Shown: positions 474 through 11,218 of the stretch, one piece after another
Layout: the number at the start of each line of letters is the position of its first letter
Numbering within the stretch: position 1 is the stretch's first letter
NCBI RefSeq assembly: GCF_011064545.1
Contig: NZ_JAAMFG010000035.1
Coordinates: 124,001-188,000, forward strand
Origin: Wenzhouxiangella sp. XN24
GTDB taxonomy: Bacteria > Pseudomonadota > Gammaproteobacteria > Steroidobacterales > XN24
Direction: 5' to 3'
Length of the DNA: 64,000 nt
Program-made: the position numbers and the translations under genes
Notes under the pieces: generated by a model
The model's database searches: none
The model's input: only the letters and a program-made list of their open reading frames with translations
What the model was told of the DNA's origin: nothing

Positions 474-1208
474 ATGAGACAGATTGTTCTTGATACGGAA
501 ACGACCGGGCTGGAGCCGGCCGAGGGGCACCGGGTGATCGAGATCGGCTGCGTGGAAATCGTCAACCGGCGGCCGACGGACCGGACTTTTCATTACTACC
601 TGAACCCGGAGCGCGAGATCGACCGCGAGGCGGAGAACGTGCATGGCCTGTCCAGCGCGTTTCTCGCGGACAAGCCGAAGTTCAGTGACATTGCGGGCGA
701 GTTTCTCGCGTTCATCGAGGGCGCGGAGCTCGTGATTCACAATGCGGCGTTCGACGTGGGGTTTCTCGACGCGGAGTTCGCCCGGCTCACGCCGCCGGGG
801 CCGGCGGTGGCGGGTGTGTGCGGGGTGCTGGATACCTTGATGCTGGCGCGCCAGTTGCATCCGGGGCAGCGCAACAGCTTGGATGCGCTGTGCAAGCGCT
901 TCCAGATCGACAACTCCAACCGCGAATTGCACGGTGCTCTGCTCGATGCGCAGCTGTTGGCGAACGTCTACCTGCTGATGACGGGCGGGCAGGCGGAGCT
1001 TGTGTTGGCCGCGGAGGAGACGACTTCGTCCGGTGCCGAGAGGCGCAAGCCGAAGCAGGTGCGGCGCAAAGGGCTGAAGCTGGTGGTCCAACGCGCCAGC
1101 GAGGACGAGCTGGCAGCCCACGAGGCGGCGCTGGACCGGCTGGACAATGCGGTCGGTGGTCCGTGCATGTGGCGCCAGGCGATGCCTGAGGCCCTGGCCA
1201 AGTCCTAG
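474..1208 (+). CDS. dnaQ: DNA polymerase III epsilon subunit, 3'-5' proofreading exonuclease
   Basis: Proofreading subunit of the replicative polymerase core, partner of the alpha and theta subunits. The protein is 244 residues, close to the 243 of E. coli. The DEDDh exonuclease domain occupies roughly residues 1-175: ExoI is LDTETTGLEP near the N-terminus, ExoII is HNAAFDVGFLDAEF near residue 90, and ExoIII is HGALLDAQLLANVYL near residue 150. The C-terminal 60 residues form the charged tail that binds alpha. The start is the ATG directly after the duplicated 21-bp spacer. The stop codon overlaps the stop of the convergent minus-strand gene by four bases (1205-1208), leaving no room for a terminator between them. 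Confidence 0.96.
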   Translation: MRQIVLDTETTGLEPAEGHRVIEIGCVEIVNRRPTDRTFHYYLNPEREIDREAENVHGLSSAFLADKPKFSDIAGEFLAFIEGAELVIHNAAFDVGFLDAEFARLTPPGPAVAGVCGVLDTLMLARQLHPGQRNSLDALCKRFQIDNSNRELHGALLDAQLLANVYLLMTGGQAELVLAAEETTSSGAERRKPKQVRRKGLKLVVQRASEDELAAHEAALDRLDNAVGGPCMWRQAMPEALAKS

Positions 1209-3514
1209 TCGCAGCCCGCCAGCCCGGCGATCCACGCGCTGATGAGCGCCAGCCCGTCTTCGTCCACTGCCAGGCTGCCGATCGGTGGCATCGCGTGCGT
1301 GTCGCGCAACCCCATGCGCAGCCAGATAAGCGAGCGGCCCGGGTCCCCCGGGCTCAGCAGCCGGGCGTTCTCGATACCCAGGTTGCTGCCCGTAATGCCA
1401 GGGACATCGCATGTCGCGGTCTCGCCGAGGGTTACGTCATAGCGCAAGTCCATGGCCGAGGGCGTCGGCCCGCCCGGCCGGTGACAACCCGCGCAATTGG
1501 TGTGCAGGTAGGCACGCGCCCGTTCAGCCAGCGCAGCGCTGCCGAAGGGATCCGGCAGGGCCGATAGCTCGGCGGGTTCGGCAGTCAACGGCGGATCGAG
1601 CAGTTCGATCGCGTTCAGGGTGAGTAGCTGGTTGGCGCTGCGACCGGTCTGGGGATAGAGCAAGTCGCCGTTGAGCTGCGCGATCTCCAGGCCCAAGGAG
1701 CGACCGGCTGCCGCCGTGTGGCATTGCAGGCATTCGACTTCACTCGGGAACAGCCAAGGGCGCCCGGAGATATCGACGAGTGCCCCGCCGACGACCCGTG
1801 TCGCATCGGTCTGTGCTTCGTTCCAGGCGTAGGTGTAGCCCGCCCATACGCCGTCGGGATGGCGCATGAAAAGTCGCGTCTCGATCAGCCGGCCCTGGCG
1901 CCGGAAGCTCTTCATCAGCACGGCGCCCGGCGGGAAGTCGAAATCACCCTCCGGCGTGAGCGCGACGCGCGTTGCCTCGGGGAGCGCGAGCCAGCGGTCC
2001 TTCTCCGCGCCGTCCGACCAGAAGGGCGCGTTCGGCGCATAGGGAATCAATCCGGCGGCAGCTTGGGTGGGCTCGGCGGGCGCCACGCAGCCGGTGTCCG
2101 AGAGCCGATCGGGTATCGTGTTCGTGGCGCCGCCGCCCGCTGCCTGCAGCGCGTAGATACCGCCGCCGTAATCGACGATGAAAAGCGTACCGTCCTCCGC
2201 CTCGCCGAAGGACGCGATGTTGCGGCCGGTCTCCGCCAGTAGGGTCTTGCCATACTGTCCGGATTCATCCGCCTCGAGCACCCACAGGCGCCCGGAGACG
2301 AAGTCACCGAACAGGTAGCGTCCCTGGAACTCGGGCAGCGCCGGCCCGCGATAGACGTAGCCACCGGTCACGGAGCTTCCCTCGCTGTGGGGATAGTCCA
2401 GCACAGGATCTATCAGCCCCGCGGAAGGGCAGCCGGTCGCAGGGTTGTAGCAGACGAAACCTTCGCGAAAACGCCAACCGTAGCTGCCGCCGCGCTCGAT
2501 GATGTCGATCTCCTCGCGCGCGTTCTGGCCGACGTCCCCGGCCCATAGGCGGCCCGTGGCGCGATCGAAGCTGAAGCGCCAGGGATTACGCAGGCCCCAG
2601 GCGAAAATCTCCGGGCAGTCCGTTGTGCCCTGGCCGGTGGCGCAGCGCGGATTTCCGGCGAAGGGGTTGTCGGGCGGAATCGTGTAGTCACCGCCGCCGG
2701 AGACGTCAATGCGCAATAGGGTGCCGAGCAGGTTAGTCGTGGTCTGGGCATTGTTCAGCGGATCGCCGCCGGAGCCGCCGTCGCCGATGGCGATGTACAG
2801 CAAGCCGTCGGGGCCGAAGCTGATGCCGCCGCCGTTGTGGTTGTTGAAGGGTTGGTCGATGGTGAGCAGCACTTGCTCTGATGCGGGGTCCAGAGAAAGT
2901 CCGCTATCCGTGCTCTGGAATCGTGAGATCACCGACTGCATTCCGCCCGCGGGGGGCGTGCGTGTATACGAAACGTAAGCGGTGCGGCTGCTGGCGTAAT
3001 CCTGTGCGAAGGCAAGGCCCAGCAGGCCGCCTTCGGACGCAGTGTTGACGACTCCGGAAAGATCCAGGAACAGGCGGGCGCTCGATGCGTCCGGCTGGTT
3101 CTCGAAGCTATATGCACGCCCCGTCTTCTCCAGGACGTACCACCGTGACGCGTCGCCTGGAGCCTGCAGCATGAACAGGGGTTGCTGGAAGCTGAGGGCG
3201 GGGAAAGCGCGCTGCACCGAAAGCGCCAGCGTGCTGACCGGGCGGGGCGGCGCGATGCAGGTGGTATTCGCCGGCCGCGCGTCCAGACCGGGTGGTGGTG
3301 CCGGATCCGGGTCGTTGTCGTCACCGCCACCATCATCAGGCGGCGGAGGCGGTGGAGGAGGCGGCGGAGGTGGAGGTGGTGGGTTGCCGATGTCGCCCGA
3401 TGGGGGTTCGCTCGATGATCCGCCGCACCCTGCCAACGGCATCGCCAACGCCAGTAGCAGGGTGATGGCTATACCGCCCTTAACTGATGCGGTTGTACTT
3501 TTGAAACTACCCAT
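1205..3514 (-). CDS. PQQ-dependent sugar dehydrogenase-like domain fused to dihaem cytochrome c domain, lipoprotein
   Basis: A 769-residue exported protein. The N-terminus is a lipoprotein signal with lipobox LAGC (Cys30), followed by a low-complexity linker with fifteen consecutive prolines and an Asp/Gly stretch (about 44-72). Residues ~90-460 have the glucose/sorbosone dehydrogenase propeller pattern (NHNGGGISFGPDGLLY, GDGGSGGDP, GLRNPWRFSF, GGSYGWRFREG). The C-terminal ~300 residues carry two haem motifs, CLQCH and CAGCH. Inference: it oxidises a periplasmic sugar or polyol and passes electrons to its own c-haems. PQQ binding is a family prediction. Start ATG follows AGGGGTAGGT. Monocistronic, convergent with dnaQ. 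One CGGGTCGGACCG repeat end lies about 100 bases upstream. Confidence 0.85.
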   Translation of the reverse strand: MGSFKSTTASVKGGIAITLLLALAMPLAGCGGSSSEPPSGDIGNPPPPPPPPPPPPPPPDDGGGDDNDPDPAPPPGLDARPANTTCIAPPRPVSTLALSVQRAFPALSFQQPLFMLQAPGDASRWYVLEKTGRAYSFENQPDASSARLFLDLSGVVNTASEGGLLGLAFAQDYASSRTAYVSYTRTPPAGGMQSVISRFQSTDSGLSLDPASEQVLLTIDQPFNNHNGGGISFGPDGLLYIAIGDGGSGGDPLNNAQTTTNLLGTLLRIDVSGGGDYTIPPDNPFAGNPRCATGQGTTDCPEIFAWGLRNPWRFSFDRATGRLWAGDVGQNAREEIDIIERGGSYGWRFREGFVCYNPATGCPSAGLIDPVLDYPHSEGSSVTGGYVYRGPALPEFQGRYLFGDFVSGRLWVLEADESGQYGKTLLAETGRNIASFGEAEDGTLFIVDYGGGIYALQAAGGGATNTIPDRLSDTGCVAPAEPTQAAAGLIPYAPNAPFWSDGAEKDRWLALPEATRVALTPEGDFDFPPGAVLMKSFRRQGRLIETRLFMRHPDGVWAGYTYAWNEAQTDATRVVGGALVDISGRPWLFPSEVECLQCHTAAAGRSLGLEIAQLNGDLLYPQTGRSANQLLTLNAIELLDPPLTAEPAELSALPDPFGSAALAERARAYLHTNCAGCHRPGGPTPSAMDLRYDVTLGETATCDVPGITGSNLGIENARLLSPGDPGRSLIWLRMGLRDTHAMPPIGSLAVDEDGLALISAWIAGLAGCD

Positions 3515-3615
3515 ACCTACCCCTAAATCGGCTACATGGAGCCCTGAGGCCGTCGATCACCAACAAGAATTGTGCTTCGTCGCTGGCCGAGTCAAGGAAA
3601 GGTTTCCAACCGGAT

Positions 3616-3841
3616 CGGGTCGGACCGGCTTAAAGCATTGAAAAATATTGGTTTGGGTGTGAGAAGTCGGCTGATTCGGGCCTTAGGTGACACAGAATCC
3701 CGAGATTGCTGTCACGTAAAGCTTAGACAGCTGCGCTTACGCGACACGAAATAAGGGCGATCGTGTAACGTAAGGCGCTCGGGATGCTAGGAAACCGCAG
3801 TCTAGTTTATTAAAAACAATAACTTAACCCGGTCCGACCCG
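3616..3841. repeat. Intergenic element bounded by outward CGGTCCGACCCG inverted ends
   Basis: This 226-base stretch fills most of the gene-free region 3515-3844. It starts with CGGGTCGGACCG (3616-3627) and ends with the reverse complement CGGTCCGACCCG (3830-3841), one base-set from the stop of the antiporter gene. Inside are GTGACA/TGTCAC arms (3687-3715) and a longer imperfect hairpin (about 3733-3778, arms GCGCTTACG and CGTAAGGCGC). Subterminal AATAACTTA next to the right end is shared with the copy at 55.5 kb. No ORF of note. It could be a MITE or REP-like element, or a structured RNA or terminator region; undetermined. Confidence 0.6.
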
Positions 3842-3844
3842 CCG

Positions 3845-5530
3845 TCAGGCGTAGCGGGCAATCATGAAGCCGGCGAGCAGGACGGCAACCCAGAGCAGCA
3901 TACTGCCGGTCGGCCAGGCGCGGGCCAGCACGCCCTCGGCACCGTGGTGGCGCATCAGCTCCCGGTTGATGCGCTGGAGCAGGCCGGTAGAGAGCGCAGC
4001 CAGGCCGACGCGCAGGCGGTTCAGCCCGCGCTCGACCAGACGGAACAGCTCCACCCAGGCCACCCGCCAGAACCAGTCGAGATCGAGGCTCACGGTCAAG
4101 GTGCGCTTCATCATCGGCAGCATCACGAAGAACGCCAGTCCCGCGAACAGCAGCAACTGTAACTGCGTCACCACGTGGTCCGGCGTGTACGGCACGTACT
4201 CCACCGGGTACGGCAGCAGCCCGTACAGCAGTTGCGGGAACACGCCCAGCCCGATGCAGATCACCGACATCAGCACCATCGCCGCCTGCATGTTCCACGG
4301 CGGATCCTTCGGCCGCAGCCCTGAATCCTTCTGGAAGAACACGAACCACGGGAACTTGATGCCCGCGTGCAGGAACACCCCGGCCGACGCCGCGACCAGC
4401 ATGAACCACACGAACGCCATGTGCATGTCAGCCGCCGCCGACACCGTCATCGACTTGCTGATGAAGCCCGAGGTGAGCGGGAACGACGAGATCGCCAGCG
4501 CGCCGATGGTGCCGCAGATCGTGGTCAACGGCATGCTCCGGTACAACCCGCCGAGTTCGGAACACTTGTTCTTCCCGGTCTGGTAGATCACCGCGCCCGC
4601 GCTCATGAACAGCAGCGCCTTGTAGAAGATGTGCGCAAACGCATGCGCCGCTGCGCCGTTGAGCGCCAGCTCCGTGCCGATGCCCACCGCCACCACCATG
4701 AACCCGACCTGGTTGATGATCGAGTACGACAGGATGCGCCGGATGTCGTTCTCCAGCAGCGCGTAAATGATGCCGTAGAACACCATCCACAAGCCGATCC
4801 AGATCAGCAGCGGCTGCCCCGGGAACAGCAGCATCATGGCCAGCACGGCCGTCTTGGTGGTGAACGCCGAAAGAAACACCGAGCCCGTCGGCGAGGACTG
4901 CGGATAGGCATCCGAAAGCCAGGCGCTGACCGGCGGCGCCGCGGCATTCACCAGGATGCCGATGAACACCAGCCACGTATCGAAGTTGTCGAGCGCCAGC
5001 GGACGGATCTCCACGGAGCCCGTGTGCACCATGATGCCCTCGATGCCCACCTTGAGGATGATGCCCCCGAGCAGGTGCATGATGATGTAGCGGATCCCGG
5101 CGCGCTTCGAACCGAAGGTCCCCCCGGCCCACACCACGATGACCGAAAACAGCGCCATCAGCTCCCAGAACAGGAACATGACGATCAGGTCGCCCGCGAA
5201 GCTCACCCCGATGGCGCCGGCGGCATAGGCCATGGCCGCCGCGAGTTCGTACCACTTCGCCTGGCGGAAGGCGAACAGGATGCCGCCGAAAGCCATCATC
5301 GCGAACACGGTGGCGAACAGCCGCCGCTCCGGCCCGCCCTCGACTACCTGGACCTCGTAGCCGAGGAACGTGGCGGTCAGCTGGATGCCGTCGGGAACCT
5401 GCCAGATGGCATACAACGTGACCAGCGGCGCCGCCAGCGCGATGACCGGCCGCAATCCCCGCCGCGAGACCGCGACGAGGAACGCCCCGATGAGCATCAC
5501 GAAGGCCGGCGGCAGGACGAACTCAAACAT
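3845..5530 (-). CDS. Cation/proton antiporter, third MrpD/NuoM-type membrane subunit
   Basis: A 561-residue polytopic inner-membrane protein of the proton-conducting antiporter family (NuoL/M/N, MrpA/D). The conserved core is visible: FWELMALFSVIVVW, the lysine helix region, FTTKTAVLAMMLLFPG, and HAFAHIFYKALLFMSAGAVIY with the broken-helix HIFYKA pattern. After the ~450-residue antiporter core there is a ~100-residue extension with an amphipathic Trp/Arg-rich section and a last helix near the C-terminus, not found in the two other D paralogues here. It is the last gene of the operon; its ATG overlaps the preceding 90-aa gene by eight bases. Likely translocates H+ or Na+; which ion cannot be told from sequence alone. 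Confidence 0.9.
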   Translation of the reverse strand: MFEFVLPPAFVMLIGAFLVAVSRRGLRPVIALAAPLVTLYAIWQVPDGIQLTATFLGYEVQVVEGGPERRLFATVFAMMAFGGILFAFRQAKWYELAAAMAYAAGAIGVSFAGDLIVMFLFWELMALFSVIVVWAGGTFGSKRAGIRYIIMHLLGGIILKVGIEGIMVHTGSVEIRPLALDNFDTWLVFIGILVNAAAPPVSAWLSDAYPQSSPTGSVFLSAFTTKTAVLAMMLLFPGQPLLIWIGLWMVFYGIIYALLENDIRRILSYSIINQVGFMVVAVGIGTELALNGAAAHAFAHIFYKALLFMSAGAVIYQTGKNKCSELGGLYRSMPLTTICGTIGALAISSFPLTSGFISKSMTVSAAADMHMAFVWFMLVAASAGVFLHAGIKFPWFVFFQKDSGLRPKDPPWNMQAAMVLMSVICIGLGVFPQLLYGLLPYPVEYVPYTPDHVVTQLQLLLFAGLAFFVMLPMMKRTLTVSLDLDWFWRVAWVELFRLVERGLNRLRVGLAALSTGLLQRINRELMRHHGAEGVLARAWPTGSMLLWVAVLLAGFMIARYA

Positions 5531-5795
5531 TGCGGTCCTCGTAATAGGACTCGGGCCGCTTGACGAGATAACCCAGCAGTTTCGCCACCACGACCATCAC
5601 GACGCAGGCGAGAAACCCGAACCACGCGTTGAAGCCGAAGGTGCCGTCCACCCCGAAGTAGCCGTGCGGCTCGATGAACCACTGCGCCGCCACGGTCAGG
5701 GCGAGCACCACGCCGAAGATCCGCCACAGCCAGCGGATCGTCGCCGGGCGCACCAGCCAGTGCTGCGCCTGGTCTTTGTCCTGGGGTTCGTTCAT
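5523..5795 (-). CDS. Small two-helix membrane protein in antiporter operon, unrecognised
   Basis: A 90-residue protein that I do not recognise. It has a short polar N-terminus (MNEPQDKDQAQHW), a first hydrophobic segment around residues 22-41, a glycine/aromatic loop (EPHGYFGVDGTFGFNAWFG) and a second segment around 57-77, then a charged tail PESYYEDRNV. The ATG overlaps the upstream D-type subunit stop (ATGA at 5792-5795), and its own stop overlaps the downstream D-type start by eight bases. It is therefore translationally coupled on both sides, which argues that it is a real accessory subunit. The start chosen is the ATG in the ATGA overlap; longer upstream frames read inside the preceding gene. 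Confidence 0.85.
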   Translation of the reverse strand: MNEPQDKDQAQHWLVRPATIRWLWRIFGVVLALTVAAQWFIEPHGYFGVDGTFGFNAWFGFLACVVMVVVAKLLGYLVKRPESYYEDRNV

Positions 5796-7264
5796 CCGGG
5801 CCCCTTGAGAATGCCGTACTCGAGATCCACCACCGGCCCGTTGAAGACGAAGAACAACAGCGTCAACGAGGCCGTGGTGACGAGCGCCACGACCATCGGC
5901 CACGGCGCTTCACGATGGTCCTTCTTCGGCGGCACGTCCTCCGTGTCGAAGAAGGCGCGGAAAATGATCGGCAGGAAATACCCCGCGTTCAAGGCCGTGG
6001 CGATGATCAGCACGGCGAGCACGAAGTAATTGTCGTTCTGGAAGGCCCCCGCGATCATGTACCACTTGGAGACGAAGCCCGCGGTCGGCGGCACGCCCAC
6101 CATCGACAAGCCCCCGATGGCGAAGGCCGTCATGGTCCAGGGCATGCGCCGGCCGATGCCGGACAGTTGCGGGATGTCGGTCTTCTTCGACGCCACGTAG
6201 ATCGCCCCGGCGGCGAAGAACAGCGTGATCTTGCCGAAGGCGTGCGCCACGATGTGCACCGCCGCGCCGATCTCCGACAACGGCGCGAGCACCAGGGCCG
6301 CCAGCACGATGTAGGACAACTGGCTGATCGTCGAATACGCCAGCATGCGCTTGAGGTTGGTCTGGCGCAGCGCGACCACCGACGCCACGATGATGGTGAA
6401 GCCGACCAGGTACACCAGGATGCGCTCTTCCGGCACCTCCACGAGGAAGTCGAGCCCGAAGATGTAGATGATGATCTTGGTGATGGCGAACACGCCGGCC
6501 TTCACCACCGCCACGGCATGTAGCAGCGCGGACACCGGCGTGGGCGCCACCATCGCCGCCGGCAGCCAGCGGTGCATCGGCATCACCGCCGCCTTGCCGA
6601 TGCCGAGCACGAACATCAGCAGCATCAGCGTCGCCAGCCCGCCGCTCATGTGACCCTCGAGGATCCCGCCGGGGGTGAAATCGGTCGTGCCCGCCACCGA
6701 CCAGGTCCAGATGATCGCCGGCAGGAACAGCCCGATGGAGGTCGCGATCAGAATGCCGAGGTAGGTGCGCGCGCCTTTTTTCGCCGCCTCGTCACCCTTG
6801 TGCGCGACCAGCGGGTAGGTGGACAGCGTCAGCACCTCGTAGAACACGAACAGCGTCAGCAGGTTCGCCGAGAACGCCACGCCCATGGCCGCCGACAGCG
6901 CGATGGCGAAGCAGGCATAGAAGCGCGTCTGGTGCTGCTCGTTGTTGCCGCGCATGTAGCCGATCGAGTAGACCGAGGTGACGATCCACAGGAAGCTCGC
7001 GATCAGCGCGAACAGGATCGACAGCGGCTCGGTGTGGAACGCGATGCTCAGCCCGGGCAGCATCTCGATGAGGGTGATCTCGATGATCTCCTCGCGCGTC
7101 AGGCTCCACAGGATGCGCAGCACCACCGCGAACAGCGCGATGGCGGTCGTGAGGGTGATGGCCTCGCGCAGGTTCGGCCAGCGCCCCGCCAGCACGATCA
7201 GCACCGCGCCGACCAGGGGGACGAGGATCGCGATCTCGAGGGCCGTGGAGGCGCTGAGGATCAT
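5792..7264 (-). CDS. Cation/proton antiporter, second MrpD/NuoM-type subunit
   Basis: A 490-residue polytopic membrane protein of the proton-conducting antiporter family. Family marks are FVFYEVLTLSTYPLVAHKG (TM5 Glu), the lysine motif in MFVLGIGKAAVMPMHRWLPAAMVAPTPVSALLHA split over adjacent helices, and NLKRMLAYSTISQLSYIVL. This signature is typical of NuoM/MrpD. Its ATG overlaps the stop of the upstream paralogue (ATGA, 7261-7264). It is more like NuoM/MrpD than MrpA, because it lacks the ~250-residue MrpA C-terminal extension, which in this operon is encoded by the separate 9086-10090 gene. Confidence 0.92.
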   Translation of the reverse strand: MILSASTALEIAILVPLVGAVLIVLAGRWPNLREAITLTTAIALFAVVLRILWSLTREEIIEITLIEMLPGLSIAFHTEPLSILFALIASFLWIVTSVYSIGYMRGNNEQHQTRFYACFAIALSAAMGVAFSANLLTLFVFYEVLTLSTYPLVAHKGDEAAKKGARTYLGILIATSIGLFLPAIIWTWSVAGTTDFTPGGILEGHMSGGLATLMLLMFVLGIGKAAVMPMHRWLPAAMVAPTPVSALLHAVAVVKAGVFAITKIIIYIFGLDFLVEVPEERILVYLVGFTIIVASVVALRQTNLKRMLAYSTISQLSYIVLAALVLAPLSEIGAAVHIVAHAFGKITLFFAAGAIYVASKKTDIPQLSGIGRRMPWTMTAFAIGGLSMVGVPPTAGFVSKWYMIAGAFQNDNYFVLAVLIIATALNAGYFLPIIFRAFFDTEDVPPKKDHREAPWPMVVALVTTASLTLLFFVFNGPVVDLEYGILKGPG

Positions 7265-8721
7265 GGCGCCACCCCGGTGAGCAGCGCCGCCGCCTGTTCG
7301 GCGAGGCCGACCGTGAGCCGCGTGTCGATGCCGAACCAGAAGTTCGCCAGCACCAGCACCCAGGTCGGCAGCAGCAGCGACAGCGGCGCCTCGCAACGCG
7401 TCATGTTATCGGCCTGCTGGAAATAGGCGACCTCGACGACCCGCCAGATGTAGATCACCGCCAGCAGCGAGCCGATGATGATCACCGCGACGATCGGCCA
7501 CCAGCCGAGCTCGATGGCGGCCAGCACCAGGTGCCACTTGCTGATGAAGCCGACCGTCAGCGGCACCCCGATCAGGCTGAGCCCGCCGGCGACGAACGCC
7601 GCCATGGTGAACGGCATGCGCCGCCCCAGGCCGCGGAACACATCGATGCGCGACGTGCCGAGCCGATAGGCGATGCAACCCAGCGCCATGAACAAGGCAC
7701 CCTTCATCATCGCGTGGTTGAACACGTGCAACAGCGCCGCGGTCAGCCCGGCGCTGGTGGCCATGCCGATGCCCAGCACCATGTAGCCGATCTGCGCCAC
7801 GGAGGAATAGGCCAGCATGCGCTTGATCTTGTCCTGGCCGATGGCCACCACCGAGGTGCTCAAGAGGCCGACCACCGCCAGCGGCACCAGCAGGTACAGC
7901 GTCGGCATCTCGCCGAAGGAAAACTCGGGCCCGAACACCGTGTAGACGAAGCGCACCAAGACGTAGATCGCCACCTTGGTGGCGGTAGCGGCGATCAGCA
8001 CCGTCACGGCGCTGGGCGCGTAGGTGTAGGCGTTCGGCAGCCACAGGTGCAGCGGGAACAGCGCCAGCTTCAGGCAGATACCCACCACGATGAAGGCGTA
8101 GGCCGTGTGCACGGTGCGCGTCTGTGCGACGTCCGGGATGCGCGCGGCGAGGTCCGCCATGTTCAGCGTGCCGGTCATGGCATACAGCAGGCCGACGCCG
8201 ATGAGAAAGAAGGTCGCGCCGACCGTGCCCATGATCAGGTAGGAGAACGACGCGGTCAGCGCGCGGCGGTCGCGGCCGAGCGCGATCAGCGTGTAGGTCG
8301 CCAGCGACGAGATCTCGAGGAACACGAACACGTTGAACGCGTCGCCGGTGACGGCGATGCCCATCTGTCCGGAGAGAAACAGCAGCATCGCGGCATACAG
8401 CCAGGGCGTCTTCTCGACCGGGATTTCGTGGCCGAGGCTGCGGCCCGCGAAAGGCATCACCACCGCGGCCAGCCCCGCGATCAGCAGCGCCAGCAGCGCG
8501 TTCGCCGCGTCGAGCCGGTACTCGATGCCGATGGGCGGCATCCAGGCGCCCATCCAGTAGCTCAGCACGCCGAGTTCCAGCACGTCCGCCGCCAGCGCGG
8601 CGGCCGCGAACAACATGAACCAGCTGACCGCCGTCGCCCACAGCCAGGGCAGCCGGCCGGCCGGCAGCAATGCCGCCACGGCCGCGCCCAGCAGGGGCGC
8701 GACCACGATCAGCGGGAGCAT
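7261..8721 (-). CDS. mrpD: Na+/H+ antiporter subunit D
   Basis: A 486-residue membrane protein, the canonical MrpD (MnhD/MbhH) position directly after MrpC. Visible motifs: FVFLEISSLATYTLIALGRD, LKLALFPLHLWLPNAYTYAPSAV with the conserved Lys and His-Leu-Trp-Leu-Pro, KIKRMLAYSSVAQIGYMVLG, and HVFNHAMMKGALFMALG. About 14 transmembrane helices are expected. It starts 14 bases after the mrpC stop, the only non-overlapping junction in the operon, and overlaps the next D-type gene by ATGA. Together with C and the other subunits it should form the ion-translocating module in the inner membrane. Confidence 0.93.
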   Translation of the reverse strand: MLPLIVVAPLLGAAVAALLPAGRLPWLWATAVSWFMLFAAAALAADVLELGVLSYWMGAWMPPIGIEYRLDAANALLALLIAGLAAVVMPFAGRSLGHEIPVEKTPWLYAAMLLFLSGQMGIAVTGDAFNVFVFLEISSLATYTLIALGRDRRALTASFSYLIMGTVGATFFLIGVGLLYAMTGTLNMADLAARIPDVAQTRTVHTAYAFIVVGICLKLALFPLHLWLPNAYTYAPSAVTVLIAATATKVAIYVLVRFVYTVFGPEFSFGEMPTLYLLVPLAVVGLLSTSVVAIGQDKIKRMLAYSSVAQIGYMVLGIGMATSAGLTAALLHVFNHAMMKGALFMALGCIAYRLGTSRIDVFRGLGRRMPFTMAAFVAGGLSLIGVPLTVGFISKWHLVLAAIELGWWPIVAVIIIGSLLAVIYIWRVVEVAYFQQADNMTRCEAPLSLLLPTWVLVLANFWFGIDTRLTVGLAEQAAALLTGVAP

Positions 8722-8735
8722 GTTGGAGGCGGCGT

Positions 8736-9089
8736 TCAGGGCAGGTCGTCCTGTGCCTGGACTTCGTCCTCCTCGACCGTGCCGTAGGCCTCGCGGATGC
8801 GGACCACCAGCGCGAGGCCCAGCGCCGTGGTGGCCACGCCGACCACGATGGCCGTGAGGATCAGCACGTGAGGCAGGGGATTCGAGTAGTTCTCCTGGCC
8901 CGCCTCGAGAATCGGCACGGTGCCGCCGTCCAGCACGCCGATGCTGATGAACAGGATGAACACCGAGACCTGGAAGATGTTCAGCCCCGCGATCTTCTTC
9001 ACCAGGTTGGTGCGCGAGATCATCGTGTAAAAGCCGATCATCGAGAGCACGATGGCGAGGTGGTAGTTGTAATGCTCGAAGAAGCTCAT
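8736..9089 (-). CDS. mrpC: Na+/H+ antiporter subunit C (NuoK-like)
   Basis: A 117-residue three-helix membrane protein homologous to NuoK and MrpC. The first helix runs from residue ~7 (YHLAIVLSMIGFYTMI), the second covers IFQVSVFILFISIGVL, and the third is HVLILTAIVVGVATTALGLALVV, with the PLPHVLILTAIVVG signature of the family. The acidic C-terminal tail (TVEEDEVQAQDDLP) is cytoplasmic. The start is the ATG in the ATGA overlap with the preceding fused A/B gene. Its position between B and D is as in all Mrp operons. Confidence 0.92.
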   Translation of the reverse strand: MSFFEHYNYHLAIVLSMIGFYTMISRTNLVKKIAGLNIFQVSVFILFISIGVLDGGTVPILEAGQENYSNPLPHVLILTAIVVGVATTALGLALVVRIREAYGTVEEDEVQAQDDLP

Positions 9090-10090
9090 GCGCCGGCCTC
9101 TTCGTCGCCGGTGCGCCGCCCGCGCCCCCGCTCCGCGAAGCTGAAATAGAACACCAGCATCGAGGACGCGACGGTCACGCCGACCCCGATCTCCACGAGG
9201 ATGATGCCGATCTGCTGGGCGAACTTCGGGTCCTCGGCGAGCTGGTTGTAATCCAGGTAGTTGCCGCCCAGCAGCATGGTCGCGAGGCCCACCCCGCCGA
9301 AGATGAGTGCACCGATCGCCGGGAGGCGGTTCAGCCACGCCGGCGGGATCACCTTGCGCGCGGCCTCCAGGTCGAACACCAGCGCATAGAGAATGATCGC
9401 CGCCGCGAAGATCACGCCCGCCTGGAACCCCCCGCCCGGGCTGTACTCGCCGTGGAACTGCACGTACAGGCCGAACAGCAGGATCACGGGGACCACCATC
9501 TTGGCGATGATCTTGAGCACGTCGTGCTGCTCCATCGCCACCGACCCCGCCGTGACCCCGGGCGGGCGGCGCCGCAGGCCGATCAGCGACGTCACGCCCA
9601 CCACCGCGGCGAACACCACGAGGACCTCGCCGAGCGTATCGAAGCCGCGATAGCTGGCGAGCACGGCGGCGACGATGTTCGGGATGCCGATCTCGTCCGG
9701 GGATTCCTGCAGGTAGTGCGGCGCCACGTGGTTGTGCGCGGGGGCGTCCGGGTCGCCGAAGGCCGGCAGGTCCGCCGTGCCGTAGATCAGCACCGCGCCC
9801 GTGACCCACACCACCGCGAGGGGCAACAGCACGCTGCGCTTCGGTCGATGCACCTCGCGCCGCGCCGTCTGGGCGAGGGTCGTGAGGATCAGGATCGTCG
9901 AGATGCCGGCGCCGACCGCGGCCTCGGTGAAAGCCACGTCGGGGGCGTCCATCGTGGTGAACAGGCCGGCGGTGATCAGGCTGAACAGGCCGAACATCAT
10001 GGCCATGGCGAACAGGTCGCGCAGCCGCAGGATCGAGATCGCGCAGACCGCGAGCAAGGCCAGCAGCACGATATCGACGAGCACATCCAT
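9086..10090 (-). CDS. Fused antiporter subunit: MrpA C-terminal (DUF4040, MbhD/E-like) plus MrpB domain
   Basis: A 334-residue membrane protein combining parts that are separate in many systems. Residues 1-75 are a DUF4040/MbhD-type domain (RDLFAMAMMFGLFSLITAGLF, DVAFTEAAVGAGIS). Residues ~85-172 match the MbhE-like end of MrpA (DTLGEVLVVFAAVVGV). Residues ~190-320 form the MrpB/MbhF domain (HGEYSPGGGFQAGVIFAAAIILYAL). In classical Mrp the first two parts are the C-terminus of the ~800-residue MrpA. Here no MrpA N-terminal half is attached, and D-type paralogues probably take that role. The ATG overlaps the mrpG stop by one base (TGATG); the stop overlaps mrpC (ATGA). Confidence 0.9.
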   Translation of the reverse strand: MDVLVDIVLLALLAVCAISILRLRDLFAMAMMFGLFSLITAGLFTTMDAPDVAFTEAAVGAGISTILILTTLAQTARREVHRPKRSVLLPLAVVWVTGAVLIYGTADLPAFGDPDAPAHNHVAPHYLQESPDEIGIPNIVAAVLASYRGFDTLGEVLVVFAAVVGVTSLIGLRRRPPGVTAGSVAMEQHDVLKIIAKMVVPVILLFGLYVQFHGEYSPGGGFQAGVIFAAAIILYALVFDLEAARKVIPPAWLNRLPAIGALIFGGVGLATMLLGGNYLDYNQLAEDPKFAQQIGIILVEIGVGVTVASSMLVFYFSFAERGRGRRTGDEEAGA

Positions 10091-10425
10091 CAGCCCTGGC
10101 GCTCCTTGCCGGTATTCCCGTCGTAATGCTTGCCCGGCTCGAGGCCGCTGTGCAGCGCCGCCTTGGCGAGCGCATGCGAGGCCGTCGGGCTGGTGAGGAA
10201 CAGGAACACGATGAGGAACAGGAGCTTGACGGTGACCAGCGTGAAGCCCGACTGCAGCATGAATCCGGCGATGATGCAGGGCGCGCACATCGAGTCGGTC
10301 ACGCTCGCCGCATGGATGCGGCTGAAGAAATCCGGCAGGCGCAGCAGGCCGATCCCCCCGATGATGCCGAAGGCGCCGCCGACGAGGATCAGCACCCAGC
10401 TGAGCAGGTCGATCGCGACGGCCAT
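10090..10425 (-). CDS. mrpG: Na+/H+ antiporter subunit G
   Basis: A 111-residue three-helix protein of the MrpG/MnhG/MbhC family. Characteristic residues are GGAFGIIGGIGLLRLPDFFSRIHAAS in the first third, followed by a helix with GFMLQSGFTLVTVKLLFLIVFLFLTSPTASHALAKAA. The Thr-Ser-Pro-Thr-x-x-His ending is the hallmark of the family. The start is the ATG in TGATG shared with the mrpF stop. The C-terminal tail is hydrophilic (PGKHYDGNTGKERQG). It acts as a small membrane subunit needed for complex assembly. Confidence 0.93.
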   Translation of the reverse strand: MAVAIDLLSWVLILVGGAFGIIGGIGLLRLPDFFSRIHAASVTDSMCAPCIIAGFMLQSGFTLVTVKLLFLIVFLFLTSPTASHALAKAALHSGLEPGKHYDGNTGKERQG

Positions 10426-10700
10426 CACTCGCCCTCCGGGCGCGTCGCCGCGTCGCCGTCGTACTCGAAGAAGCGCAGCACCGCGATCACGCCGATGAAG
10501 TTGATCAGCGCGTAGGCGAGGGCGATGTCGAGAATGTCCGGCCGGCCGCTGAGAAAAGCCAGCGCCGCGATCAGCAGCACGGTCTTCGTGCCGAACACGT
10601 TCACGGCGAGGATCCGGTCGTAGACCGTCTTGCCGAGCAGGGCCCGCGTCACCGCGAGCGCCATGGTGATGAGGATCGAGAGAATCGCGGCGACGATCAT
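10425..10700 (-). CDS. mrpF: Na+/H+ antiporter subunit F
   Basis: A 91-residue protein with three hydrophobic segments, typical of MrpF/MnhF/MbhB. The family motif VYDRILAVNVFGTKTVLLIAAL is visible around residues 28-50, followed by DIALAYALINFIGVIAVLRFFE. Its ATG overlaps the mrpE stop (ATGA, 10697-10700). In Bacillus, MrpF has been tied to solute efflux and Na+ handling; no such specificity can be read here. Confidence 0.92.
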   Translation of the reverse strand: MIVAAILSILITMALAVTRALLGKTVYDRILAVNVFGTKTVLLIAALAFLSGRPDILDIALAYALINFIGVIAVLRFFEYDGDAATRPEGE

Positions 10701-11218
10701 GACGCCCCCGCTTCGCCGGGCCGGGGCACAGGCAGGCGCCGCTCCGCACGGCTCACCCGCCGGTCCATCTCGCCCTCCAGCAGCGCCTCGACGGTGTCGC
10801 GCGACAGCGCATGCACGCGCAGGCGCTGTCCTTCCACGTCCAGCGTCACGGTGCCGGGGGTCAGGGTGATCGAATTGGCATACACGACCCGCCCCACGGT
10901 GGTCGTCTGGCTCGCATCGAGCTCGAACACCGTCGGGCTGATCGGCATCGAGGGCGACAGCACGCGGCGCGCCACGTCGAAGCTCGACTTGACGATCTCG
11001 ATGCTCAGCCACGGCCAGTAGGGGACATAGCGGATGCCCGCCCAGATGGGGTTGGTGTACGCATCGAGGATGTTCATGCGCCACGTGAGCAGCAGCGTCA
11101 GCAGCACCGAGGCGGTGCCGAGACCCAGCAGGATGGGCTTGTACAGGCCGGACAACAGCAGCCAGATGGCCGCCAGCAGCAGGCCCATCAGCAGGAAATT
11201 CACGAGTGGCTTGTACAC
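10697..11218 (-). CDS. mrpE: Na+/H+ antiporter subunit E
   Basis: A 173-residue protein, first gene of the nine-gene antiporter operon. Two N-terminal hydrophobic segments (FLLMGLLLAAIWLLLSGLYKP, LLGLGTASVLLTLLLTWRM) are followed by the MrpE domain with YVPYWPWLSIEIVKSSFDVARRVL and ANSITLTPGTVTLDVEGQRLRVHAL. I chose the GTG at 11218 because AGGAC lies eight bases upstream and MrpE proteins normally start at this point. The longer open frame upstream (to 11524) would read into the divergent promoter region and lacks family similarity. Confidence 0.9.
   Translation of the reverse strand: MYKPLVNFLLMGLLLAAIWLLLSGLYKPILLGLGTASVLLTLLLTWRMNILDAYTNPIWAGIRYVPYWPWLSIEIVKSSFDVARRVLSPSMPISPTVFELDASQTTTVGRVVYANSITLTPGTVTLDVEGQRLRVHALSRDTVEALLEGEMDRRVSRAERRLPVPRPGEAGAS

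Follow-up and report, generated by a model that had tools for sequence, protein, structure and literature searches.

A nine-gene operon of Wenzhouxiangella sp. XN24 that probably encodes an Mrp-type antiporter with a D2-x-D3 cassette in place of the N-terminal half of MrpA

Introduction

A locus in Wenzhouxiangella sp. XN24 bears on how the coupling ratio of Mrp antiporters and of complex I depends on the number and the chemistry of their antiporter-like subunits. The window analysed here is a stretch of 64,000 nucleotides (NCBI RefSeq assembly GCF_011064545.1, contig NZ_JAAMFG010000035.1, positions 124,001 to 188,000, forward strand), and on its minus strand, from position 11218 down to 3845, nine open reading frames (ORFs) form an operon whose products we call E, F, G, A'B (the counterparts of A' and B, fused), C, D1, D2, x, and D3. 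What kind of machine does a cluster with three antiporter-like (D-type) subunits encode? A 2020 account of the Mrp structure proposes that protons passing via the N-terminal half of MrpA (MrpA-N) and via MrpD drive one Na+ via MrpA-C, C, F, and G, and that the array can lengthen or shorten (PMC7419157, excerpted text). Our reading, to which we give a probability of roughly 70%, is that the operon encodes one nine-protein Mrp-type (CPA3) cation/H+ antiporter of the Mbh-order branch in which D2-x-D3 replaces MrpA-N. Such a complex would be a natural three-subunit antiporter whose outermost subunit has lost the lysine of transmembrane helix 7 (TM7), with lysine-bearing sister lineages available for comparison in a simple, non-redox machine. 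Through D2 and D3 the operon is also tied to rhizobial green complex I and its pair of MrpD-like subunits, and if D2-x-D3 is indeed a portable module, a three-subunit antiporter that carries it would allow a direct test of whether subunit number or the lysines set ion stoichiometry. Its middle member, x, is a small protein that standard annotation leaves as "hypothetical protein."

Results

Mrp subunits in the gene order of Mbh and Mbs

The nine ORFs are all open where the first-pass annotation of this DNA had placed them, and its statement that all junctions but one overlap by 1-8 bases is exact. Seven of the eight overlap (E/F, A'B/C, D1/D2, and D2/x by 4 bases, F/G and G/A'B by 1, x/D3 by 8), and only C and D1 lie apart, by 14 bases. 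Chance or mis-called ORFs are ruled out, since all nine are kept in order in other loci.

By their Pfam and NCBIfam matches, the subunits E, F, G, C, and B and the C-terminal part of MrpA that are known from Mrp (CPA3) antiporters are all present, and the MrpD-type subunit that follows MrpC there is matched by D1 behind C. A'B scores 399 bits against the NF009161 cut-off of 272 (NCBIfam) and retains the RGFDT...E motif of MrpA-C. D1, D2, and D3 all match Proton_antipo_M (Pfam; the three E values are 1.5e-63, 1.2e-55, and 2.2e-43). NCBIfam cut-offs are passed by D3 (NF009310) as well as A'B and are missed by D1 and D2, the closest model to D2 being NF006236 (583.6 bits, below its cut-off of 663). 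Unlike classical Mrp (mrpA-G), which has a full MrpA with a NuoL-like N-terminal half, the operon lacks MrpA-N and has D2-x-D3 instead. Its order, EFG-A'B-C-D1-D2-x-D3, is also not the classical mrpABCDEFG of groups 1 and 2; group 3 Mrp permits irregular gene order (PMC5703873).

Among solved chains, D1 matches MbsH, MbhH, and MrpD best, and A'B matches MbsE/D, MbhD/E/F, and MrpB. The order EFG-A'-B-C-D is that of the sodium module of Pyrococcus Mbh and Mbs, and the earlier assignment of the operon to this order agrees with these closest solved relatives, which come from Mbh and Mbs (and Mrp). Mbh and Mbs differ from the operon, which adjoins no redox module: both are driven by redox reactions, and the number of D-type subunits is one in Mbh and two in Mbs. 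Gene order and best solved relatives, together with the proximity of D3 to MbsH' in the tree described below and the service of the same cassette in complex I, could also mean that the operon is part of a machine powered by redox reactions, like Mbh and Mbs, with its catalytic module encoded at a different locus. We consider this improbable. No redox subunit is found among the proteins that flank the operon in the window, and no hydrogenase or sulfane-reductase module adjoins. Among the best 80 of at least 500 loci from a scan of named genomes, a set biased towards the window's type, D1 directly precedes D2-(x)-D3 in an Mrp-type operon in 66, and complex I genes occur in 2. Moreover, the Mbh redox module contacts the single D-type subunit directly (PMC7419157, excerpted text), and D2-x-D3 would occupy that side here.

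D2 and D3 in a genome without full MrpA

The NuoL-like N-terminal half of MrpA had been reported missing, and this holds beyond the operon itself: no full MrpA was found in the host genome (37 contigs, 98.69% complete) when it was searched with PF13244 (the MbhD domain) and with A'B. PF13244 has three matches there, all in Mbh-order operons with a short A' (open frames of 192, 194, and 466 amino acids), and in none of the three is it fused to an antiporter domain. The A'B query recovers the identical three places, of which the two outside the window are operons on contig C21.

The phylogeny of the three D paralogues against NuoL/M/N, MrpA, and MbhH, which had been proposed as a check, was run as a tree of 97 rows by a quick method with Shimodaira-Hasegawa approximate likelihood ratio (SH-aLRT) support only. 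MrpA-N (five references), NuoL, and HyfD form one clade in this tree (support 98, starred), and no D paralogue falls inside it. D3 is a separate clade (100, starred; 22 of 22 rows) that Pyrococcus MbsH', its nearest solved relative by sequence, adjoins (87). The D2 rows make up one side of a branch (91), which three proteins of the host's other operons join at 97 and 100 (both starred), and D1 groups with MrpD, MbhH, MbsH, and NuoN. D2 and D3 therefore have clades of their own on the L/M/MrpA side of the tree, and D1 lies on the MrpD/MbhH/NuoN side. Nor does any D paralogue carry the long MrpA C terminus; the D3 extension is long but of the NuoL HL-helix kind.

D2 contains PF00662, which is typical of NuoL and MrpA, and the NuoL and MrpA models score it well. 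We rejected D2 as a detached MrpA-N on the basis of this quick, SH-aLRT-supported tree, which places it outside the MrpA-N/NuoL clade despite PF00662. The position of D2 and D3 on the L/M/MrpA side, along with PF00662 in D2, nonetheless makes the two plausible occupants of the MrpA-N position. The "two additional D-type subunits plus a small protein" of the first-pass annotation are present as genes, but D2-x-D3 is better seen as taking the place that MrpA-N (or NuoL) would have, which makes the net gain one antiporter-like subunit.

The two C21 operons (~110.6-129.6 kb) are of Mbh order and Mrp type as well. Behind E F G A' B C, each encodes four antiporter-like subunits: an MrpD-like one, a D2-like one, others, and a final HyfB-like one (857 amino acids in the first operon). 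Neither x nor D3 is present in these two operons. The host is not alone in having such a set of three operons, since Wenzhouxiangella limi combines similar multi-D antiporter operons with a HyfB-like last subunit (L149, L150) and, apart from these, an operon with D2-x-D3. PF00361 has 15 matches in the host genome, counting an ordinary nuo operon on contig C34 and a DabB-like protein.

The small protein x is tied to D3

Two TM helices are predicted in x, at residues 17-40 and 55-78, and AlphaFold2 (AF2) models it with middling confidence (predicted local distance difference test, pLDDT, 70.5; predicted template modeling score, pTM, 0.40). Its sequence is conserved across phyla and carries a C-terminal signature, (E/D)-x-Y-Y-D. 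No Pfam or NCBIfam family fits: the hits are scattered over unrelated families (best E values 0.00042, for MFS_1 in 7 of 34, and 0.0075), and matches among solved structures are no better than E 0.47. We found no published description of x in the literature searched, which did not include the key green complex I paper, and a search for the names mrpD1, mrpD2, and mrpD3 gave nothing relevant.

The association of x with D3 is strict. A profile search finds x between D2 and D3 in 78 of the 80 loci that hold both (four loci without D2 are excluded from this count), and the remaining two are haloarchaeal. Across 229 genomes sampled evenly from the class, all 43 that have D3 also have x, and of the 186 that lack D3 only one has it; this lone x lies 430 bases from a contig start, so its D3 may lie off the contig edge. 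Each of the 45 D3 genes is preceded by x on its own strand, at a gap of -8 to 91 bases in 44 cases and of 419 in one.

Small two-helix proteins can serve in assembly, and the overlapping or abutting genes would suit an assembly or insertion factor for D3 that is absent from the finished complex. We find this role for x doubtful, since its conservation across phyla, its C-terminal signature, and its constant adjacency to D3, complex I loci included, fit a subunit equally well or better.

The arrangement is widespread

D3 scores above its family cut-off in 16 of 59 relatives (host included), among them 7 of the 7 searched members of the host's family, and in 43 of the 229 genomes of the class. 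Besides the 66 loci in which D1 directly precedes D2-(x)-D3, the 80-locus set holds 2 with D2-x-D3 before E...D1, the 2 with complex I genes, and 10 that are truncated or unassigned. E and A'B also lie upstream in the same order in 55 of the 66. The gene order, whose presence in relatives had been proposed as a check, is not due to chance. Judging from record titles, the loci span Gamma-, Alpha-, and Betaproteobacteria, Desulfobacterota, Nitrospirota, Planctomycetota, and Brocadiaceae. One set of locus gene strings misses some small genes, having been built from only a handful of queries for each gene, and the strings of the 80 loci overlook x in three loci where the profile finds it.

Haloarchaeal plasmids (e.g., of Haloterrigena sp. 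KLK7) carry the same order, E F G A' B C D D D. Their three D proteins are orthologous to D1, D2, and D3, and the NCBI product name of their D3, "Na(+)/H(+) antiporter subunit D," is that of the model passed by the window D3. They differ in having A' and B as separate genes, an acidic insertion in D2, and no x between D2 and D3. The group 3 Mrp of "Ca. Nitrospira alkalitolerans" has two NuoM/NuoL-like genes past mrpD, probably extra mrpA/mrpD-like genes (PMC7784846); the excerpted text of that account speaks neither of a small protein nor of a connection with green complex I or a missing lysine. The arrangement is thus real and common, has in part been published, and can be counted as a variant Mrp. 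The description "unusually D-rich" is right about the three D subunits and wrong about their being unusual, given this spread, the existence of NCBIfam models for all D types, and the Nitrospira precedent. Four things seem to be new: the x family, the strict tie of x to D3, the stable split between Lys and Asn at TM7, and the fact that D2-x-D3 is shared with complex I repeatedly.

Cyanobacterial group 3 clusters of irregular order can contain two mrpD genes (PMC5703873), and by analogy the operon might encode an ordinary group 3 Mrp antiporter with redundant MrpD copies and nothing functionally distinct. We regard this as highly unlikely. The three D proteins belong to deep, separate clades, follow one another in an order that haloarchaea share with several bacterial phyla, and have a dedicated partner in x; this is not the picture of recent redundancy.

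A deltaproteobacterial metagenome-assembled genome (MAG) has a contig with one three-D operon on each strand (L112/L147); one of the two has the unusual order D2-x-D3-E-B-F-G-A'-C-D1.

D3 has lost the TM7 lysine in most lineages

A canonical proton-translocating antiporter-like subunit has Glu in TM5, Lys in TM7 and TM8, and Lys or Glu in TM12. All 73 D1 rows have the TM5 Glu and the Lys of TM7 and of TM12, and 71 of them have TM8 Lys; for D2 the same three residues are found in 77 of 77 rows and TM8 Lys in 76 of 77. The window D1 and D2 both have the full set. D3 keeps TM5 Glu and TM8 Lys in 84 of 84 rows and TM12 Lys in 83, and it falls short at TM7, where Asn is found in 65 of the 84 and Lys in 19 (one locus with a split D3 was dropped). 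With relatives added, the count becomes 75 Asn and 22 Lys among 97 rows (one locus whose full ORF was not recovered was dropped). In the window D3 the residue is Asn195 and the other three are kept. Asn is also found in the window's two congeners, in haloarchaea, and in all six complex I rows. All Asn-type rows lie in one block of a quick tree made with the TM7 column left out, and a single Lys/Asn change suffices to explain them.

These counts bear on whether D3 is a third working proton path, which would give 3 H+ per cation instead of 2. Such a "low-gear" antiporter could still expel Na+ when the proton motive force is lower. A ratio of 2 H+ to 1 Na+ has been proposed for two antiporter-like subunits (PMC7419157, excerpted text), and D3 has conserved the TM5, TM8, and TM12 residues almost throughout and the TM7 lysine in its Lys-type rows. 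K223A in MrpA and K219A in MrpD, both substitutions of the TM7 lysine, abolish activity, however (PMC5703873, excerpted text), and the window D3 belongs to the Asn block. We hold a third path to be a tentative possibility, on the unlikely side. With Asn in place of the TM7 lysine, the window D3 more probably serves as a brace or as a gating cap, rather than as a full proton path in addition to D1 and D2.

The AF2 model of D3 (pLDDT 89.3, pTM 0.83, 35 sequences) has NuoL-type architecture: an antiporter core, a long lateral helix at residues 484-529 (46 residues, ~69 angstroms if each adds 1.5), and at 539-560 a last TM helix. It aligns with Escherichia coli NuoL over residues 3-561 with a high root-mean-square deviation because the lateral helix swings, and the core alone lies within 2-3 angstroms of NuoL, MrpA, MrpD, and MbsH'. 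Past a conserved Trp, the D3 tail measures 73-90 residues in most proteobacterial antiporter loci, 99-101 in the complex I loci of the 84-row set, and 100-128 in most desulfobacterial and nitrospiral antiporter loci. The length of the lateral helix as a simple ruler of subunit number was rejected, since long tails occur in antiporter loci too.

D2-x-D3 recurs in complex I

The best plasmid matches of D3 lie on rhizobial symbiotic plasmids, in the order nuoJ-nuoK-D2-x-D3-nuoM-nuoN-nuoA..., where D2-x-D3 occupies the place of nuoL and x and D3 overlap by 8 bases, as in the window. In "green" complex I, two MrpD-like subunits replace NuoL (PMC9040806 and PMC7415380, excerpted texts); by NCBIfam model and tree these two are D2 and D3, and x lies between them. 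Rhizobial green complex I differs from the window operon in its nuoA-K, M, and N genes, of which the operon and its scanned flanks have none, in its attached redox arm, and in a D3 that ends in a NuoL-type QTG...Y tail, which the window D3 lacks. The complex I-type arrangement also occurs in a Nitrospiraceae MAG (whose contig starts inside D2), in a MAG of Desulfobulbaceae, and in two copies in a MAG of Euryarchaeota. The euryarchaeal case might be due to errors in MAG binning; the rhizobial case is not open to this doubt. Manganitrophaceae Complex_I_3, a redox complex with five pumping subunits, has two MrpD-like subunits closest to the rhizobial ones, and the redox complex TO_2 likewise has two (PMC9040806, excerpted text).

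On a tree of D2 plus D3, built with the D3 tail left out, the label complex I or antiporter needs three changes, a number that the starred branches also impose, and none of 200 bootstrap trees (0%) gets by with a single change of context. The two contexts are told apart by the NuoL-type QTG/QSG tail: a pattern search finds it on D3 in 2 of 2 complex I loci versus 0 of 78 other loci; by eye it is also present in L033, L034, and L146 and not in L144, for a total of 5 of 6 complex I rows. This fits re-tailing when D3 moved. We see an even chance that D2-x-D3, with x as a subunit of its own, is a portable three-protein end-module of complex I-like machines that has been exchanged more than once between antiporters and complex I, and that D3 works without the TM7 lysine in most lineages and in both machines.

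One of the two euryarchaeal copies (L144), on a short contig, reads nuoK-D2-x-D3-nuoN with no nuoM between, and the second copy in that MAG differs.

A proposed antiporter with a lengthened proton-side array

From this gene content, orthology, and residue pattern, we infer that the nine proteins assemble into one complex in which E, F, G, A', B, and C would form the cation-translocating block. D1 would adjoin this block in an MrpD-like position, and D2-x-D3 would stand for MrpA-N, so that the proton-side array is lengthened to D1-D2-D3. D3 would be distal, its lateral helix of ~70 angstroms reaching back across its neighbour as in NuoL and MrpA, and x would be a dedicated small subunit at the D2/D3 end, most likely filling or holding the interface. 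Inward movement of H+ via D1 and D2, whose key residues are complete, would power export of the cation. If D3 is of the Asn type, we judge a 2:1 ratio with D3 as a brace or gate to be likelier; if it is of the Lys type, 3:1 is possible.

Several observations weigh against this proposal. D3 lacks the TM7 lysine in the window. The confidence of its lateral helix is uneven (block means 65-90) in what is a model of D3 alone. Haloarchaeal operons of the same order have no x, so x is not required by every such complex. Finally, when the helix with the cation-site Glu is aligned with full MrpA, its sequence in A'B is TEAAVGAG (TEAAIGAG in one haloarchaeal A'), and the Glu of A'B sits one turn off the MrpA cation-site position; the cation site thus need not match that of MrpA.

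Feature table and neighbouring genes

Table 1. The nine genes of the operon, with window coordinates and the matches or evidence behind each assignment
Gene	Product	Position	Strand	Evidence
E	MrpE/MbhA-like subunit, 173 aa, GTG start	10697..11218	minus	PF01899 MNHE, E 2.7e-29
F	MrpF/MbhB-like subunit, 91 aa	10425..10700	minus	PF04066 MrpF_PhaF, E 1.8e-17
G	MrpG/MbhC-like subunit, 111 aa	10090..10425	minus	PF03334 PhaG_MnhG, E 1.3e-24; TIGR01300 above cut-off
A'B	MrpA C-terminal part (MbhD + MbhE domains) fused to MnhB/MrpB, 334 aa	9086..10090	minus	PF13244, PF20501, PF04039
C	MrpC/MbhG/NuoK-like subunit, 117 aa	8736..9089	minus	PF00420 Oxidored_q2, E 1e-21; NF005621 above cut-off
D1	MrpD/MbhH/NuoN-side antiporter-like subunit, 486 aa	7261..8721	minus	PF00361; solved relatives; tree; key residues
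D2	Antiporter-like subunit, own clade, 490 aa	5792..7264	minus	PF00361 + PF00662; tree; key residues
x	Small two-helix membrane protein, 90 aa, unnamed family	5523..5795	minus	Conserved between D2 and D3
D3	Distal antiporter-like subunit (position proposed), NuoL-type architecture, 561 aa	3845..5530	minus	NF009310, 674 bits vs cut-off 564

The proteins encoded around the operon are a glucose/sorbosone-dehydrogenase-like protein (GSDH), an exonuclease, a UDP-sugar dehydrogenase, an epimerase, and PGI. The first of these lies at 1205-3514 on the same strand, ~330 bases downstream of D3, and has two CxxCH motifs.

Elsewhere in the host genome, on contig C34 (~340-344 kb; positions 2039-6057 of locus L151), a NuoL-like protein is followed by a second protein that we take, by its motifs, to be DabA-like, beside a divergent LysR-type gene. 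The two are a probable DAB inorganic-carbon uptake pair.

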